Source: a bacterium
Lineage (GTDB): Bacteria; Muiribacteriota; UBA9980
DNA length: 49,210 nt
NCBI GenBank assembly: GCA_029571125.1
Contig: JAKPTH010000341.1
Span: 1-49,210, forward strand
Direction of reading: 5' to 3'
Each line of letters opens with the position of its first letter. Within the stretch, counting starts at the first letter, position 1. Shown here piece after piece: positions 20,219-33,492 of the stretch. The notes under the pieces were generated by a model, which worked only from the letters and a program-made list of their open reading frames with translations, was not told the DNA's origin and searched no databases. Made by a program: the position numbers and the translations under genes.

Positions 20219-20536
20219 ATGAAAATAGCGGTAACTTCAACGGGCCCTTCAATAGACAGCGCGGTAGACGAAAGGTTCGGAAGGGCAAGATATATAATAA
20301 TTTACGACACGCTGTCTAAAACTTTTGAAACGGTGGATAACGAAACTAATCTCAACATGGCTCAGGGAGCGGGTATCCAGACCGCGGGCAATATGGCCGA
20401 AAAAAAAGTGGAGCTCATATTGACCGGCCGCGTCGGGCCGAAAGCCTCGGAAGCGCTCAACAAAGCCGGAATAAAATACGTTGAAAACGCTTCCGGAACC
20501 TGCCGCAGCGCAATTGAAAAGCAGCAGGCCGCATAA
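20219..20536 (+). CDS. NifX/MTH1175-like cofactor family protein
   Basis: MKIAVTSTGPSIDSAVDERFGRARYIIIYD ... VELILTGRVGPKASEALNKAGIKYV. Confidence 0.9.
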   Translation: MKIAVTSTGPSIDSAVDERFGRARYIIIYDTLSKTFETVDNETNLNMAQGAGIQTAGNMAEKKVELILTGRVGPKASEALNKAGIKYVENASGTCRSAIEKQQAA

Positions 20537-20567
20537 AATCGGCAATAACTATATAAAGGAAGAATTT

Positions 20568-21467
20568 ATGCTAAATAAAATCACGACACCACTCAAAATC
20601 GCCGTAGCGTCGGGTAAAGGCGGCACGGGAAAGACCAGCGTGGCCGTCAACATGGCCGCCGCCGCGGCAACTGCGCTTTCATTTCTCGACTGTGACGCGG
20701 AAGCGCCCAACGCGCATTTATTTTTTCAAAAGCAGGCAGGTTTTAGGGCGGACAATCACGACGAATTTTTCGACGGCGTTGAAGAATTTTATGTAACGGT
20801 GCCCGAATTCAACGAAAATTTATGCAACGGCTGCGGTTTTTGTAAAACGGTGTGCAAGTTTAACGCCATTACCATGATACTCAACAAACCGCTTTTTTTC
20901 GCGGAACTCTGTCATTCTTGCGATGCGTGCCTTAAAGTATGCTCTATGGGGGCTATCAAAGCCGCAAAAAAAATGACCGGAAAGATAAGACATAAAAAAG
21001 CGGACCGCGATATAGCTTTAACGGACGCAATATTGAACGTCAGCGAGGCTAAGAGCCCGCCTTTGATAAAAAAAATAGTCAAAAGCGATTCGGGGCCTTC
21101 GCTAACCATAATAGACGCGCCTCCGGGCACGAGCTGCCCTCTGGTAGCGGCCGTCTATAACGCGGATTATATAATTCTGGTCACGGAGCCGACGCCGTTC
21201 GGCTTCAGCGATCTCAAGCTCGCCGTGGAAACGGCGCGGCAGTTAAAAGTCAAATTCGGAGTCGTTATAAACAAATATGACGGCGATTTCGGCGATATTA
21301 AAAAATACTGTGAAACCGAAAATATTAGAATAATAGGCATAATACCTTTCGATATCCAGATGGCCCGCGTATATTCCGGCGGCGGCATAATAGTCGATGA
21401 AATGCCGCATACGCGTGAACTGTTTTTGAAGATATTAGAAAACGCGGTCAGCGAGGCGGTAAAATGA
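20568..21467 (+). CDS. MinD/Mrp-type P-loop ATPase with inserted [4Fe-4S] ferredoxin domain (start revised to ATG 20568)
   Basis: VASGKGGTGKTSVAVNMA; NGCGFCKTVCKF and HSCDACLKVC; AAAGGAAG upstream of ATG 20568. Confidence 0.92.
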   Translation: MLNKITTPLKIAVASGKGGTGKTSVAVNMAAAAATALSFLDCDAEAPNAHLFFQKQAGFRADNHDEFFDGVEEFYVTVPEFNENLCNGCGFCKTVCKFNAITMILNKPLFFAELCHSCDACLKVCSMGAIKAAKKMTGKIRHKKADRDIALTDAILNVSEAKSPPLIKKIVKSDSGPSLTIIDAPPGTSCPLVAAVYNADYIILVTEPTPFGFSDLKLAVETARQLKVKFGVVINKYDGDFGDIKKYCETENIRIIGIIPFDIQMARVYSGGGIIVDEMPHTRELFLKILENAVSEAVK

Positions 21468-22348
21468 AACAGATAGCTGTAATTTCAGGCAAAGGGGGCA
21501 CGGGAAAAACGTCCATCACGGCCGCTTTTATACAATCGGCAAAATCAGTTACGGCGGCGGATTGCGACGTGGACGCCGCAAATCTGCATCTACTGATAGA
21601 GCCTATAAGCGGCAGAACCGCGCCGAAAGCTTTTATGAGCGGATACGACGCGATAGTGGACAAATCCAGGTGTATTAGCTGCGGCAAATGTATTCCCGTT
21701 TGCGTTTTCGAAGCGATAGTACGCGACGAAACCGACAACAAGGTAAAAACCAATCATCTTTTATGCGAAGGCTGCGGGGCATGCGTAACCATCTGCCGCG
21801 CCAACGCGATCAAGCTGGTAGAAAAACAGGCCGGCATAAGTTATATTTCTAACACGCGCTTCGGCCCGATGACGCATGCAAAGCTTTACGCCGGAGAAGG
21901 TTCGTCAGGAAAGCTCGTATCGGAAATAAAAAAACAGGCATGCGACATCGCCAGATCGGAAAGCAGCGATTTTATAATACTTGACGGCCCTCCTGGCACC
22001 GGATGCCCCGTGATCGCGACTCTTACGGGGGCAAACCGCGCCGTCGTCGTAATAGAACCGAGCGTTTCAGGCGTACACGACGCCAAACGCGCTATAGAAC
22101 TATGCAAACATTTTAAAGTACCGGTTTCTATAATAATAAACAAGTATGACATCAATCTCAAAATGAGCGAAAACATTGAAAATTTTGCCGGAGAAAATAA
22201 AATAAGCATTATCGGTAAAATCGCTTTCGATAAAATTTTTATCGAAGCGATGAAAAAGCGAATGACGGTAATCGAATACGACAAACATTCCGCGGCGGCG
22301 AAATCGCTTATCAACGCCTGGGATAACCTTAAAAAATCTATGGCATGA
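21464..22348 (+). CDS. MinD/Mrp-type P-loop ATPase with inserted [4Fe-4S] ferredoxin domain
   Basis: ISGKGGTGKTSITAAF; ISCGKCIPVC and EGCGACVTIC; overlaps upstream gene by 4 nt. Confidence 0.92.
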   Translation: MKQIAVISGKGGTGKTSITAAFIQSAKSVTAADCDVDAANLHLLIEPISGRTAPKAFMSGYDAIVDKSRCISCGKCIPVCVFEAIVRDETDNKVKTNHLLCEGCGACVTICRANAIKLVEKQAGISYISNTRFGPMTHAKLYAGEGSSGKLVSEIKKQACDIARSESSDFIILDGPPGTGCPVIATLTGANRAVVVIEPSVSGVHDAKRAIELCKHFKVPVSIIINKYDINLKMSENIENFAGENKISIIGKIAFDKIFIEAMKKRMTVIEYDKHSAAAKSLINAWDNLKKSMA

Positions 22349-25811: not shown

Positions 25812-28475
25812 TCATGCGATCCATCTTATTTTAAAACTGACCGGCGTCATTATGTCTTCGCGCCTGACAAGCCTTACTGCCGGAACCGCCGCGCAACGGT
25901 TATTCGCAAGAACTTTAGCGTAAATTCCGCCCTGGATTTCGCCAAGCTTGTCGGCGATCAATTCCGCCGCCTTCGCCAGGTCGATCTCTTCCGCGCCGGC
26001 TTTCGGCACGAGAGCGAGGGCCAGACGCGGATCGCCGTTTTCGGTTTCGTATCTGCTCATTTGGAATTCGCCGCTCAGCCTGTCGTTAAGATAATGCACC
26101 CTTTCGATAACGGTTTTAATCACGCCGACGGACAGCTTGCTGCCCATGAAGGTAAGGCCGTCTTTGCGGCCGCTGACTATCACGAAAGGTTTTTTATCCG
26201 CGCCGGCCGGATCGTAGCCGCGTTCAGACATCAATTTAAAAGGGTCAAGGCCGTTTTCTTTGACGAGCGCCATCATCTTATCGTAATCCATCACGAACCC
26301 GGCGTCGTTGGAACGGTATCTTATGAGCGGGACTATTCCAGGCCGCGTCATTACGAGCTCGCCGTCGACTTCTTCGATAAATATATCGGAAGGCGAATAT
26401 TGACATATAGTAGGCATGGTTTCATAGCCGAGTATTTTTTCCAGAAGGCCGTTTTCGTGAAGCAGCCGCTTTATGGCTATGCACAGCGGCGTTTCTTTTC
26501 CCACGCTGCGAAAATCCGTAGCGCCGTAGCCGGAGCTTATCGAAGTGAGGAACCCGTAAGGATATTCGAGCAGTTCGTTAATCCTGTCGCGGAAAGATTC
26601 GGAATAGCCTTCGCCTATAAGACGAAGCTTTATATTAAATTTTTGTATATCCACGCCTTCGGCCGCGAGCCTTTCAAGAATATTTTTAGCCGTCGGGCCG
26701 TATGAAAATAAAATAGTTTGTTTATAATACTTTGAAAATTCAGCTATAGCCTCCATGCATTCTTTTTCTTCACGGCCGGGCGTTATAAGCGTGATCGTTC
26801 CGGTCTCGATGCCGATCGCGCGAAGCACGTAGGCGAAAAGGGCACCGCTGAGGTTGCCGCCCATTAAAAGGCCCAGAACCACGAGCGTGGGAGTGGAGGA
26901 AATTTTATAGTTCCTGTCGAGTTCTTCGAACGTGCGCTTCCAGTAGCCTATTTCGGTTTCGCGCGAGCACGGCCAGTACACGTGTTTTCCAGAAGTCCCC
27001 GAGCTGTGCGCTATGAAGTGCGCTTTATCGAGCGCGCCGCCGGAGCACCTTTCGGTAATCGCGTAAGCGTTTATATACGACGGCTTGTCCATGAACGGAA
27101 GTTTTTTGAAATCGTCCGCGCTTTTTACCGCAGGCAGCCCGCCGCATGCGGTTTCAATAAATTTTTTATAAGCCGGCGTTTTTTCGACGGCCTGATTGTA
27201 AAACTCGACCGGGTCCACTTCTTTAGCGGCCGCAGCGGAGCATGAAGAGCCTATTTTAAGGTTCGTAAGCCCCCAGCCGGCGCCGGCGGGAACTTTTAGC
27301 GTGCCTTCGTGATATTCGGGCGAATCGGCTATATTTTCAACGAAATAAGGCGCCTGTGAAACATGGTCGCCCGGAAGGTCGATTTCTTCGCGCGCGCTGA
27401 AATGAACGTTGGCGGTCTTGCCCATGGCGGATTCGTGCATTCCGCCGCACCAGGCCGACACTTTATTTATACTGCACAGCCGGGCTATTTTGATGGCTTC
27501 CAGATAACCGCCGACGCGCGGCGGCTTAATATTTATTATGAGCTTCGAGACATCCGAATATTGCTTCCACAATTCGATCGCCTGTCTGGCGTGCGCCGCT
27601 GTCAAAATGCTTTCATCCATACAGATCGGCGTTTTGAGACCGGCCAGCGCCCTTGCGTGATCGTATATGTCGTCGTTCGGCCCCGGCTGTTCGATCATCA
27701 TAAGGTTGAATTCGTCGAGCCTTTTCAGCAGCCCGATATGCTCCGGATTGAATAAGTCGTAGGCGGCGTTAGCGTCAACCTGAAGCCTTATATGCGGATA
27801 ACGGGCCCTTATGGCGGCCACATATTCGATATCTTTTCCGGGTTTGATCTTCACCTTTATCCGGGCCGCTTTCATATGCTCGACGGCAGTTTCAATTTTT
27901 TTCATGAGCGCTTCTATGGTAGGTTCCAGCCCGACGCTGGTTCCGGCCTCCACCGTTTTTTTTACGCATCCCCATAACTCGGAAACTGAAACGCCGCGCA
28001 TCTTTGCCAGAGCGTCCCAGTATGCGCCTTCGACTCCCGCGCGGGCCATATTATGTCCGACCACCCATTTATAAAGCTTTATAAAAGAGCAGACGTCCGT
28101 AACGGCCGATTTCTTAGCGGCCGCTTCGTCGAGCGACGATATTATATAGCCCAGGGCGGTTTCTACGCTTTTATGGCATTCGTAATCGTACCAGGGCGCC
28201 GAAAGCGGCGAGCACTCGCCTATTCCGCAAATAACGCTTCCGTCGGCCCTGCGGAAAGTGATTTCCGGATACAGCCTCACCAGAGAGTCGAAGCGGCCGA
28301 AAGAAGTTTCAAAAGGTATGCAAAGTTTCATCTCACGCTTGTGGACCGTAACTTTTTGTATAAAAAGCGGTTCGGTATTTTCAAAAATGCCGAGCTCTTT
28401 CAGGCCAAGATTTTTCTCATTGACTTCACCTGCATAACCGCAGTTTCCGGCTTTATTAGTTTTATCGAAAGCCAT
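25812..28475 (-). CDS. Fusion protein: enolase-superfamily NSAR/OSBS (MenC-like) domain plus PaaK-like adenylate-forming ligase domain
   Basis: Residues ~50-420: PFETSFGRF, KVKIKPGKD, QVDANAAY, MIEQP, CMDES, IINIKPPRVGG, WCGGMHESAMGK; residues ~420-887: HSSGTSGKHVYWP, SSGYGATD, PLIRYRSND. Confidence 0.85.
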   Translation of the reverse strand: MAFDKTNKAGNCGYAGEVNEKNLGLKELGIFENTEPLFIQKVTVHKREMKLCIPFETSFGRFDSLVRLYPEITFRRADGSVICGIGECSPLSAPWYDYECHKSVETALGYIISSLDEAAAKKSAVTDVCSFIKLYKWVVGHNMARAGVEGAYWDALAKMRGVSVSELWGCVKKTVEAGTSVGLEPTIEALMKKIETAVEHMKAARIKVKIKPGKDIEYVAAIRARYPHIRLQVDANAAYDLFNPEHIGLLKRLDEFNLMMIEQPGPNDDIYDHARALAGLKTPICMDESILTAAHARQAIELWKQYSDVSKLIINIKPPRVGGYLEAIKIARLCSINKVSAWCGGMHESAMGKTANVHFSAREEIDLPGDHVSQAPYFVENIADSPEYHEGTLKVPAGAGWGLTNLKIGSSCSAAAAKEVDPVEFYNQAVEKTPAYKKFIETACGGLPAVKSADDFKKLPFMDKPSYINAYAITERCSGGALDKAHFIAHSSGTSGKHVYWPCSRETEIGYWKRTFEELDRNYKISSTPTLVVLGLLMGGNLSGALFAYVLRAIGIETGTITLITPGREEKECMEAIAEFSKYYKQTILFSYGPTAKNILERLAAEGVDIQKFNIKLRLIGEGYSESFRDRINELLEYPYGFLTSISSGYGATDFRSVGKETPLCIAIKRLLHENGLLEKILGYETMPTICQYSPSDIFIEEVDGELVMTRPGIVPLIRYRSNDAGFVMDYDKMMALVKENGLDPFKLMSERGYDPAGADKKPFVIVSGRKDGLTFMGSKLSVGVIKTVIERVHYLNDRLSGEFQMSRYETENGDPRLALALVPKAGAEEIDLAKAAELIADKLGEIQGGIYAKVLANNRCAAVPAVRLVRREDIMTPVSFKIRWIA

Positions 28476-28503
28476 TTAAAAACTCCTTGTATTATAATTT
28501 TTA

Positions 28504-29343
28504 TTAAGCGAAAAGCAGAAGGCTTCCCGACATTACAACCATGCCGGAAATAAGCCCGTATATGGCGATATGGTGCTCGCCGTATTTTTCGGCCGTAGGC
28601 AGAAGCTCGTCAAGCGATATATAAACCATTATGCCCGCCACGGCCGCGAACACATATCCGAACAGGGCATCGCTGAAAAAATTCAAGAGCAGAAAATATC
28701 CGATAATCGCTCCCAGCGGCTCTGAAAGGCCAGACATGAACGAATACATGAATGCTTTACGCCTGCTCTTGGTGGCGTAGTATATGGGAACGGAAACGGC
28801 GATTCCTTCGGGAATGTTATGGATCGCTATAGCCACGGCTATGCTTATGCCTATGCCCGGCTCCTGCAGGCCGCCTATAAAAGTGGCCAGGCCCTCGGGA
28901 AAGTTGTGTATCGCTATGGCAAGGGCAGAAAACATGCCCATTCTCAGAAGGTGTTTGCTTTTCGCCTCTTCTCTGGCGATCTTTAGTTGGTCTTCGCTGC
29001 ATTCAGCGCACATATCATCCATAAATTCGGTTTCGTGAGGGTTTTCGTAAGAAGGAACCAGTTTGTCTATAAGCGCTATAATAGCCATTCCGGCAAAAAA
29101 CGAAAGCACGGTAAGAGAATAGCCGGTTTTGGGGCCGTAAACCGATATAAGCGAAGTTTTCGCCTTTACGAAAATCTCCACGAACGATACATATATCATG
29201 ACCCCGGCGGAAAAGCCGAGCGAACCAGAAAGGAAGCGCGGATCGAATTTTTTGGCAAAAAACGCGATCGCGCTGCCAATGCCGGTTGAAAGGCCGGCGA
29301 AAATAGTTAGTCCTAAAGCGAATAAAACATTTTCTGTATTCAT
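28504..29343 (-). CDS. ZIP-family divalent metal transporter (ZupT-like)
   Basis: ALAIAIHNFPEGLATFIGGLQEPGIGISIAVAIAIHNIPEGIAVSVPIYYAT. Confidence 0.95.
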   Translation of the reverse strand: MNTENVLFALGLTIFAGLSTGIGSAIAFFAKKFDPRFLSGSLGFSAGVMIYVSFVEIFVKAKTSLISVYGPKTGYSLTVLSFFAGMAIIALIDKLVPSYENPHETEFMDDMCAECSEDQLKIAREEAKSKHLLRMGMFSALAIAIHNFPEGLATFIGGLQEPGIGISIAVAIAIHNIPEGIAVSVPIYYATKSRRKAFMYSFMSGLSEPLGAIIGYFLLLNFFSDALFGYVFAAVAGIMVYISLDELLPTAEKYGEHHIAIYGLISGMVVMSGSLLLFA

Positions 29344-29359: not shown

Positions 29360-31201
29360 CTATTTTACTTTAAGCGGCAGATAAGGATCGCCTAAAAGGT
29401 TGAGCTCGAAAAATACCCAGCGCGTGGTGCCGTGGCCCATGAATTTTACGTTGGCTTCTTTTGAAGCCTGGTTTGCGTCGCCAAGGCGGTTTTTGCCGAG
29501 GGCGAACAGGGCGTTGGTGAACTGGCGGTGGAAATACTGCGACGCGCCGCGGCATGAAACGGATGCGTCCGGATCGGGATCTTCGGGTCCGAGGCCGTAA
29601 GAAGAGTTTCCGATAACGGCGTAAGAGCCGGCCGGCGAAGTCACATGAGCCGAAAGTATGCAGTTTCTATCGGTAAAGCGGCCGCAGTAGCAGCCCTGGG
29701 TGTAAAGAAGGTAATAACGGCTATTGGCCAGCCTGCTAAGGCCGCTTGAATAAAGGCGCATATTGCTGGTGACGCTCGAATGGCCTATGTGGTTGAGTAT
29801 GTATATTCCGCCGTTTATAGCGTTGATAATATCGGCAGATGACCACTTTTTATCCTGATCGAAAAGATAGGCGCGCGGGTAATCCGCCGGATATCCCGCG
29901 GTGGTAAAACCGTGAACCGTGGCGCCGTTTTCGATCTCTTTCATATACGTTTTGCCCCATATTCCGGGAAAGAGGCTTTCGCCGCAGAAAAACGCCTTTC
30001 CGGTTTCGCCTTCGTAATAGCCATAGGCGGCGATGTTTTTCTTTAAAAAGTTAGCGAGAGCGGCCGCGGTATCGGCGGGAACCCTTCCTACGGATAATTC
30101 CGAAAACATGTCTATATCTCCGCCGTTAAGGCCGTCGGCCGGATCGCCGTATATTCCGTCTTTATTTTCATCGAAAGTGCCGTCGAGGTTGCAATAGTAA
30201 ACGTCGCCCGGAAGCAGCTGGTCGAAATTATCTTTTTCCCACTTGAAAGCCGCATGAAGTTTTCTGACCGGAATCACGGGGTTAGCGTCCATGGAACCGC
30301 CCGCCAGCAGAACGTATTTGACGCCGCTTTCGTTATAACGCTTTCTGAGATAGTTTCTTAATTTATCGGCGCCGTCGCGGCCTTCCGATGACGAAAGGAT
30401 ATCTTCTATGAGAGCGATTTCGGTTTTAAGGCCTTTTTCATTCAGGAATTTAGAAAATTTCTGGAAATTGTATTCTTCGGCGGAAGCCGCGAGAGCCTTT
30501 GAAGTTACGATAAGATAATCAACCGGAGCCTTTTTAGAGATTTTTACGGCTTTATAACCGCTAATATCGCCCGGATTGTCCACGAGGGATTTAACGTATT
30601 CGCGGTCGCTTTCGATATCGCGCACCACGGCGGCCGTAGAGCTTTTTTTAGCCGGCTTAAGGCCGTATGAAAGCACCGTGCGGGTGTAGTAATAAACTTT
30701 CCCCGTTTCGGCCTGATACATAACGGGGTTGATGTTCAAAACGAGAATTTTATAACCGCGCGCGCTCTGGATAGACATATTCGCCATTACGCCGGCCGGA
30801 TAAATTCCGGAGTAACTGTATTTAAATGCAGGCGCTTTGCCGCCGTTCATCAAAGCGTCGGTTTTTCTTTTTTCGGCGGCCTGCTTTTCGAAGGAAAGCG
30901 GAATGTTATACGCTACGGGCCTCAGTAAGTATTCGCCTTTAATTTCAGTTAAGTTTAAGGGAGTCACCCTGACGTTTTCGGCTACGAATCCCTGCGGCAG
31001 AAGTATGGATACGGGCTTGAAAGGAAGCGCCGGCATGGCGGGTTCGATGGTAAGCGGAAGGCCGTCTAAAGATATGTCGTAGTAACTGCCGGACTTTACA
31101 AGTTTCGGAGCGTTGAAATCATAGACTACCTCTTCGGCGAATGCCGCGCCCGTACAAATAAACATCAAAATAAACGCGATTAGTAAAACCGTTTTTTTCA
31201 T
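29360..31201 (-). CDS. Peptidase family C25 (gingipain-like) secreted cysteine protease
   Basis: Signal peptide; gingipain-type propeptide; DYLIVTSKALA; YILNHIGHSS (His) and LLYTQGCYCGRF (Cys). Confidence 0.88.
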   Translation of the reverse strand: MKKTVLLIAFILMFICTGAAFAEEVVYDFNAPKLVKSGSYYDISLDGLPLTIEPAMPALPFKPVSILLPQGFVAENVRVTPLNLTEIKGEYLLRPVAYNIPLSFEKQAAEKRKTDALMNGGKAPAFKYSYSGIYPAGVMANMSIQSARGYKILVLNINPVMYQAETGKVYYYTRTVLSYGLKPAKKSSTAAVVRDIESDREYVKSLVDNPGDISGYKAVKISKKAPVDYLIVTSKALAASAEEYNFQKFSKFLNEKGLKTEIALIEDILSSSEGRDGADKLRNYLRKRYNESGVKYVLLAGGSMDANPVIPVRKLHAAFKWEKDNFDQLLPGDVYYCNLDGTFDENKDGIYGDPADGLNGGDIDMFSELSVGRVPADTAAALANFLKKNIAAYGYYEGETGKAFFCGESLFPGIWGKTYMKEIENGATVHGFTTAGYPADYPRAYLFDQDKKWSSADIINAINGGIYILNHIGHSSVTSNMRLYSSGLSRLANSRYYLLYTQGCYCGRFTDRNCILSAHVTSPAGSYAVIGNSSYGLGPEDPDPDASVSCRGASQYFHRQFTNALFALGKNRLGDANQASKEANVKFMGHGTTRWVFFELNLLGDPYLPLKVK

Positions 31202-31446: not shown

Positions 31447-32610
31447 ATGAAAGGCGGAACTGTCATGCTTAAAGCAGCGGTAGGCCACAGCGAATACTTC
31501 GACGCGAAAGACGCGGCCGAAGAATTGATCGCGCAATGCGAAGAAGCGCTCGAAGGCGCGAAACCTTCGGCGGGAATGCTCTTCGCCGCGCCAAGCTGCG
31601 AATACGCCGATTTATTAAAACTCGTCAACGCCAGATACGAGGGCATCGAGCTTATCGGCGCGACTTCCGACGGAGAAATATCTTCCTGCGGCTCTTTCAA
31701 AGAAGACTCGTCGCTTCTGGTCCTTTTCGCGTCGGACGAAGTTGAAATAAAAGCCGGAATAGGGACGGGCGCGTCACTTGACACTACGGCCGCGGCCCAA
31801 AACGCGCTTCAGACGGCGCGAAAAAACCTGACGAAGCCGGCGGCGCTCTGCGTCGCTCTGCCGGACGTAACTTCCATGAACGGAGTGCACCTCGCCGACT
31901 GCCTCAACGACGCGGCGGGCGCAAGCGCCGTGGTTATAGGCGGCGGAGCTTCGGCGCAGGGCGGAGTTAAAAAAACCTTCCAGTTCCATAAAAACGATAT
32001 ATTTACGGATTCGATCGCGGTCCTGGTTTTCAGCGAACCTGTAAAGTTTTCGTTCGGCGCGGCCAGCGGCTGGAAGGCCGTCGGAAACAGAAAAACAGTC
32101 ACCAGATCGCAGCGAAATATAATCCATGAAATAGACGCAAAACCCGCGTCCGAATTTTATTCCAATTACTTCGACGGCGCCACCGGCGTTCTCGGCGGAG
32201 AATTTCCCATGATGATATTCGAAGAAGGCGAAAATATTCCTTATATCAGGGCCGTGATACAGGTGGACTGCGGCGGCGGAACCATAAAGGCCGCCGGCGA
32301 CGTAAAAGAAGGAACGAGCGTGCAGTTCGCCGAGGCCGGACGCGACGAAATAATAGACGGCGCCGGTGAGTCCATAGAAATGGCCGTTAAAAATTTTAAA
32401 GGCCGGCCTGAATTTTTATTAGTTTTTTCCTGCGCGGCCCGAAAAAATATACTGGGAACCAAAACCGGGCTCGAGTTCGAAGCGCTTAAAAACGCAGCGC
32501 CCCGGATCGCCGGATTTTATACTTACGGCGAAATTGGGCCGCTGGGGCCCGGAAAACCGGCGAAGTTCCACAATGCCACCATAATAACGCTTTTAATGGG
32601 AGTCGATTAA
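31447..32610 (+). CDS. FIST N/C-domain sensory protein
   Basis: GMLFAAPSCEYADLLKLVNARYEGIELIGATSDGEIS; VIGGGASAQGGVKKTFQF; FYTYGEIGPLGPGKPAKFHNATIITLLM. Confidence 0.9.
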   Translation: MKGGTVMLKAAVGHSEYFDAKDAAEELIAQCEEALEGAKPSAGMLFAAPSCEYADLLKLVNARYEGIELIGATSDGEISSCGSFKEDSSLLVLFASDEVEIKAGIGTGASLDTTAAAQNALQTARKNLTKPAALCVALPDVTSMNGVHLADCLNDAAGASAVVIGGGASAQGGVKKTFQFHKNDIFTDSIAVLVFSEPVKFSFGAASGWKAVGNRKTVTRSQRNIIHEIDAKPASEFYSNYFDGATGVLGGEFPMMIFEEGENIPYIRAVIQVDCGGGTIKAAGDVKEGTSVQFAEAGRDEIIDGAGESIEMAVKNFKGRPEFLLVFSCAARKNILGTKTGLEFEALKNAAPRIAGFYTYGEIGPLGPGKPAKFHNATIITLLMGVD

Positions 32611-32625
32611 CTCGCCGGAGCGCTT

Positions 32626-33492
32626 ATGAACGAAGAAACCGATATAAACATTATAAAATTGGAAAAACAAATAAAGGTCATACGTCAAAAGCTCGAGCGA
32701 AGCGAGACTAACCGCGCCATCCTTGAAGACGTAAAAGACGCCAACCAGAAACTGCTTAAAAAGGTCAACCTCGAAGTAGAAGAAGCGCGCGCCACCATAG
32801 AACGCCAGAACGAAGAATTAGTCAAACTTTACGCCGAACTGGAAATAGAAAAGCAAAAAGCGGAAAACCTCTTATTGAACATACTTCCTTTCAAAATCGC
32901 CGGCGAACTCAAGGCCGCCGGAAAAGTGACGGCCGTTTATTTCGAGTCCGCCACCGTACTTTTCACCGACATAGTCGGCTTCACTAAAATGTCGAAACTG
33001 CTCGACGAAAAAAGGCTCGTAGAAGCGCTCGACGACTGCTTCTGCGCGTTCGACGAAATAGTTAAAAAGCGCGGGCTGGAAAAGATCAAAACCATCGGCG
33101 ACAGCTATATGTGCGCGGGCGGCCTGCCGGAAACCAATTCCACCCATCCTTTCGACGCGGTTATGGCCGCGCTTGAAATGCAGGATGCGGTTTCCGAAAG
33201 AAAACGTAAAAAAGCCTCGGCGGGCGAATTTTATTGGGATATACGCCTCGGAATACACACGGGGCCTTTGATAGCCGGCGTGGTCGGCAAAAACAAGTTC
33301 GCTTACGACGTATGGGGCACGACGGTGAACACGGCCTCTAGAATGGAATCCAGCGGCGAAGCCGGCCGGATCAATATATCGGGCGCAACTTATGAGTTGG
33401 TGAAAGACCGCTTCACAACCGAGCCGCGAGGAAAAGTCCTGGCTAAAAATATGGGCGAAATAGAAATGTATTTCGTCAACGGCGTAAAATAA
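32626..33492 (+). CDS. Class III adenylate/guanylate cyclase with N-terminal coiled coil
   Basis: VLFTDIVGFTKMSKLL, EKIKTIGDSYMCAGG, IRLGIHTGPLIAGVVGKNKFAYDVWGTTVNTASRMES; 16 nt from the FIST gene. Confidence 0.93.
   Translation: MNEETDINIIKLEKQIKVIRQKLERSETNRAILEDVKDANQKLLKKVNLEVEEARATIERQNEELVKLYAELEIEKQKAENLLLNILPFKIAGELKAAGKVTAVYFESATVLFTDIVGFTKMSKLLDEKRLVEALDDCFCAFDEIVKKRGLEKIKTIGDSYMCAGGLPETNSTHPFDAVMAALEMQDAVSERKRKKASAGEFYWDIRLGIHTGPLIAGVVGKNKFAYDVWGTTVNTASRMESSGEAGRINISGATYELVKDRFTTEPRGKVLAKNMGEIEMYFVNGVK

Follow-up and report, generated by a model that had tools for sequence, protein, structure and literature searches.

The closest described counterparts of the protein considered here are the NSAR/OSBS enzymes of the enolase superfamily and the PaaK ligases. 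In the NSAR/OSBS family, the catalytic and metal-binding roles of the KxK motif, the second catalytic Lys, and the Asp/Glu/Asp metal ligands are well established, and the residue equivalent to Arg266 is associated with racemase specificity. The catalytic lysine pair is used by NSAR and OSBS enzymes alike, and a member of this subfamily may be a racemase instead of, or besides, an o-succinylbenzoate synthase (PMC8142540).

An enolase of this type fused to a predicted PaaK-related adenylate-forming domain is encoded in a single open frame (P0001; 25812..28475, minus strand) of a 49,210-nucleotide stretch of contig JAKPTH010000341.1, referred to as the window, which comes from a 4.87-Mb metagenome-assembled genome (94% complete; the phylum was sampled with 40 genomes). 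The initial annotation had proposed an 887-aa fusion without giving the strand; the frame proved to be intact and to carry every motif that had been quoted (KVKIKPG, DAN, IEQP, CMDES, and NIKPPRVGG, followed by SSGTSG and PLIRYRSND), and its ATG lies 7 nt beyond an AAGGAG box resembling a Shine-Dalgarno sequence (28483..28488, minus strand). An 887-codon orthologue, 95% identical and colinear, was found in a genome of the same genus (bacterium ADurb.Bin243, MWBZ01000003.1; G001), where the flanking genes are identical in kind. Comparison of the two genes gave a dS of 0.41, a dN of 0.024, and a dN/dS of 0.059 overall (enolase half, 0.034; ligase half, 0.051), with the linker (aa 406-425; 27201..27260, minus strand) relaxed at a dN/dS of about 0.27 over the few sites of aa 405-428. 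Given the colinear orthologue and the low dN/dS, the fusion is genuine and both of its halves are under purifying selection.

A search for the same architecture in other proteins, which the initial annotation had called for, found it in ADurb.Bin243 alone among the sampled genomes, the orthologue being the sole full-length match in a scan of genome contigs. Further enolase-ligase fusions were absent from 57 genomes, from 382 genomes searched with the C-terminal half, from 25 genomes of another phylum, and from 288 relatives of the genome carrying the nearest unfused enolase (L010), in samples that overlap and by searches that can miss diverged fusions. Viral contigs yielded none, and members of the ligase family were found near 0 of 79 NSAR-type enolase loci. 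The objection that the architecture might already have been characterized found no backing in the open-access literature, which contains no description of such a fusion, although this is weak evidence, most subscription papers lying outside that literature. Since neither the other sampled genomes nor the open-access papers searched yielded the combination, it represents, as far as seen, a new domain architecture made of two known kinds of enzyme and confined so far to two species of one genus.

The assignment of the N-terminal half (aa 39-405; 27261..28361, minus strand) to the NSAR/OSBS enolases was borne out by domain models and by residue mapping. It matches the Pfam domains MR_MLE_N and MR_MLE_C, both above cut-off, and the NCBIfam o-succinylbenzoate synthase model TIGR01928 with 216.9 bits (cut-off, 200.65). 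In the alignment, its K207/K209, D234, E262, D287, K317, and R320 correspond to K161/K163, D189, E214, D239, K263, and R266 of the Amycolatopsis enzyme (PDB entry 1sja), so that the domain retains the KxK motif, the second catalytic Lys, the three acidic metal ligands, and the Arg266 equivalent. In the AlphaFold2 model of the full-length protein, most of the enolase half has pLDDT values above 85, and the modeled domain matches N-acylamino acid racemases (TM score about 0.88): Foldseek returned 1wuf, 1sja, and 2zc8 with TM scores of 0.87 to 0.90 (by target length) at about 31 to 36% identity, and an R266Q structure is also present in the output. In the phylogenetic tree, this domain forms a clade (support, 99/96) with two unfused gammaproteobacterial enolases, L010 and L217, which is separated by a long stem from the other NSAR/OSBS sequences and is marked by a 6-residue insertion ahead of the strand bearing the second catalytic Lys; because of the long stem and the insertion, the specificity of these proteins may differ from that of other family members. 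The clade and the known NSAR/OSBS enzymes grouped apart from two of the three outgroup enolases, with a long-branch warning; the third fell inside, so the deeper branching of the clade is uncertain. No match to the ligase family was found in the L010 genome or in the 17 kb around L217.

The C-terminal half (aa 426-887; 25815..27200, minus strand) is far more divergent. It has no match in Pfam, AMP-binding (PF00501) included, even at an E value of 10; a sequence search of PDB with this half alone returned nothing, and the fusion does not match the PaaK phenylacetate-CoA ligase equivalog model TIGR02155 (cut-off, 646), which is matched by single relatives of the C-terminal half (the best of them with 53.8 bits). 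These relatives, typically of about 450 to 510 aa and 24 to 30% identity, come from several bacterial groups. A profile built from the family does match PaaK structures (2y4o at 2.2e-24, 4r1l at 4.7e-23, and also 2y27), and the adenylation motifs can be traced along the sequence: the P-loop SSGTSG (residues 491 to 496), GYGATD (to D654), RYRSND (to D724), the hinge GR (769 and 770), and the C-terminal Lys882. The Ser and Gly of the P-loop, the Gly and Asp of the YG..D motif, the Tyr and Asp of RY..D, the hinge Gly, and Lys882 are invariant in an alignment of 11 family members. On the strength of the profile matches and these invariant residues, the C-terminal half is assigned, at the sequence level, to the PaaK branch of adenylate-forming (ANL) domains. 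The "PaaK-type" label of the initial annotation thus stands as far as it means a PaaK-related rather than a MenE-like enzyme, but it is loose for a divergent family that matches no Pfam model. Since alignment depth was lacking, the ligase half was modeled poorly and no meaningful fold search could be made with it. The same ligase family also occurs in a 978-aa protein (L101; L136:7646-10582) after an N-terminal part of roughly 480 aa, which has no Pfam match and by eye resembles an alpha/beta hydrolase; the next gene there encodes a 7TM histidine-kinase-like protein.

Directly 3' of the fusion gene in both genomes are genes for a protein combining a HATPase_c_2 domain with a GNAT-type one (P0003; 24270..25769, minus strand, 42 nt downstream) and for an MFS transporter of the DHA2/EmrB drug-efflux type (P0004; 22891..24273, minus strand, overlapping the former by 4 nt), the three genes forming a putative operon headed by the fusion. 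The transporter matches Pfam MFS_1, and its best NCBIfam match, TIGR00711, is below cut-off. The HATPase-GNAT protein has a 92% identical orthologue at the same place in ADurb.Bin243; its GNAT part gives a weak Pfam match that is stronger in its paralogues. Unlike most paralogues in the alignment, it has lost the Asn of the HATPase N-box and a Gly of the GNAT RxxGxG motif and may not be an active transferase; the N-box Asn is also missing from three HATPase-GNAT proteins of the G135-type operons described below. Immediately upstream of the fusion, across a 28-nt gap, lies a gene for a ZupT-type zinc transporter (28504..29343, minus strand; NF003243, 383.7 bits), which may share its transcript but is probably unrelated. 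Upstream of this pair, on the same strand and again with short gaps, is a gene for a C25 (gingipain-family) peptidase (29360-31201). Elsewhere in the window are a tandem pair of MinD/ParA-type ATPases with 4Fe-4S ferredoxin motifs inserted in each (20481-22348) and a gene for a FIST-domain sensor followed by one for a class III adenylate/guanylate cyclase (31447-33492).

HATPase-GNAT proteins were detected in 19 of the 382 sampled genomes, some of the matches being weak. In three genomes of one phylum other than that of the window (G135, G386, and G397), their gene neighbors encode PaaK, LuxE, a LuxC-ligase fusion, and a member of the ligase family seen in the window; in G008, LuxE and an MFS transporter; in G000 and G001, an Aas-like enzyme and an MFS-PlsC protein; and in G003, an AMP-binding enzyme, an MFS transporter, and an M20 protein. 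Because many other HATPase-GNAT genes adjoin unrelated genes, the association with adenylating enzymes, usually accompanied by MFS, is a tendency and not a rule. The window proteins fall on long, unresolved branches in the ligase-family and HATPase-GNAT trees, and the closest operon type therefore cannot be read from these trees. Also observed were fusions of about 900 aa between a LuxC acyl reductase and a PaaK-type AMP-binding domain (L137:2095-4794, L206:1787-4486, and L207:7954-10647), located inside a conserved operon for HATPase-GNAT, MFS, PaaK-like, PaaK, LuxE, and LuxC-ligase proteins, and an Aas-like AMP-binding/PP-binding/acyltransferase protein encoded beside an MFS-PlsC-type acyltransferase fusion and then a HATPase-GNAT gene (L129:1520-6100).

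The intact fusion in two genomes, with both halves under purifying selection, the retention of the catalytic residues of both halves, the racemase-like structural match, and the profile match of the ligase family to PaaK point to a bifunctional enzyme that would act on the alpha-carbon of an acid resembling N-acylamino acids and activate an acid; the HATPase-GNAT and MFS genes directly downstream, which recur beside adenylating enzymes, suggest that activation would serve conjugation and export. This is the favored reading but, as a whole, a tentative one, possible without being probable, for which we infer the substrate, the order of the steps, the acceptor, co-transcription, and export. The N-terminal domain would use the Lys209/Lys317 pair to take the alpha-proton off a metal-bound carboxylate, in the manner of NSAR/OSBS enzymes; it would most likely act on an N-acylated amino acid or a closely similar compound, epimerizing the alpha-carbon, although dehydration could also occur. 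The C-terminal domain would convert the carboxylate to an acyl-adenylate and pass it to a nucleophile (CoA, a protein, or an amine), and the fusion would most likely couple the two steps, the second domain activating the acid that the first has reshaped. The HATPase-GNAT protein might then contribute to conjugation of the activated acyl group, and export of the product might fall to the MFS transporter. Counted against this bifunctional reading are the divergence of the enolase clade, the motif losses in the HATPase-GNAT protein, the absence of an M20 deacylase gene beside the fusion (such genes are present near many bacillary relatives), and the unrelated neighbors of HATPase-GNAT genes elsewhere.

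Alternatively, the two domains could have been joined for co-expression only, the enolase racemizing N-acyl amino acids in D-amino-acid salvage and the ligase acting as an acyl-protein or acyl-CoA synthetase that cooperates with an acyl reduction of the LuxE/LuxC type whose genes lie elsewhere. This explanation is somewhat unlikely: each half does have unfused relatives, the ligase family does share operons with LuxE and LuxC-ligase genes in G135, G386, and G397, and the window genome itself encodes LuxE (contigs C139 and C237) and a LuxC-like protein (C237), but the fusion has been kept intact with its neighbors in two species, no LuxC or LuxE gene is next to it in the window, and no amidohydrolase releasing D-amino acids is found among its neighbors. 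It is distinctly unlikely that the enolase is an OSBS-like syn-dehydratase that acts on a non-menaquinone substrate and supplies the ligase within a pathway that makes and exports a small molecule; the lysine pair common to NSAR and OSBS (PMC8142540), the divergent, insertion-bearing clade, and the adjoining genes of the efflux MFS and GNAT types would all fit, but the Arg266 equivalent, tied to racemase specificity, is kept and no recognizable secondary-metabolite tailoring genes are present among the annotated neighbors.

A role in menaquinone synthesis, with the first half making o-succinylbenzoate and the second activating it in the manner of MenC and MenE, is very improbable. This parallel, drawn in the initial annotation, has the above-cut-off TIGR01928 match and the fitting order of chemistry (OSBS, then acyl activation) in its favor but does not hold up as biology: with positive controls working, neither MenD nor MenB was found in the 94%-complete genome, MqnC was found above its model cut-off, the ligase half has no AMP-binding/MenE family match (as the earlier remark on its PaaK rather than MenE character implied), and membership in the enolase subfamily is compatible with racemase activity, either in place of OSBS activity or alongside it (PMC8142540). 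UbiA, MqnE, MqnA, UbiE, and UbiX were read by eye around MqnC, which alone was tested by a model, and the genome apparently relies on the futalosine (Mqn) route in place of Men, which was counted in favor of the bifunctional reading. The absence of MenD and MenB together with this MqnC cluster largely refutes a menaquinone role. An assembly or frameshift artifact has a negligible chance, since the frame, although known in the window genome from a single contig, recurs with its neighbors and under constraint in ADurb.Bin243, which rules out assembly error as the origin of the fusion.

It is unlikely that the locus specifies a pathway not described before, with a single polypeptide both inverting (or dehydrating) and adenylating an N-acyl amino acid ahead of HATPase-GNAT conjugation and MFS export; the exported conjugate of such a pathway would be D-configured or alpha,beta-unsaturated. 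The biological substrate is unclear for many NSAR/OSBS-type enzymes, and a fused ligase narrows the question, as the two domains may act on one and the same acid, and a single purified protein suffices to address it directly. The fusion also highlights an adenylating family without Pfam AMP-binding matches among the members scanned and to the recurring set of HATPase-GNAT, MFS, and ligase genes.

Compared with the NSAR/OSBS enzymes of Amycolatopsis (1sja) and Thermus (2zc8) and with lin2664 (1wuf), the N-terminal half shares the fold, the lysine pair, the metal ligands, and the Arg266 equivalent but belongs to a separate long-stem clade with the 6-residue insertion, is fused to a ligase, and is encoded without an adjoining M20 deacylase in a genome devoid of MenD and MenB. 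Its nearest relatives, L010 (71% identity) and L217 (52%), have the same insertion and belong to the same clade but are enolases of about 410 to 425 aa with no ligase attached. The C-terminal half has the P-loop, YG..D, RY..D, GR hinge, and C-terminal Lys of the PaaK ligases (2y4o, 4r1l, and 2y27), from which it differs in being joined to an enolase and in being too divergent for the Pfam and NCBIfam models. The operon represented by L137, L206, and L207 lacks the enolase, includes LuxE and a LuxC-ligase fusion, and has an MFS transporter of a different subfamily, but it shares three gene types with the window operon, among them the ligase family itself.
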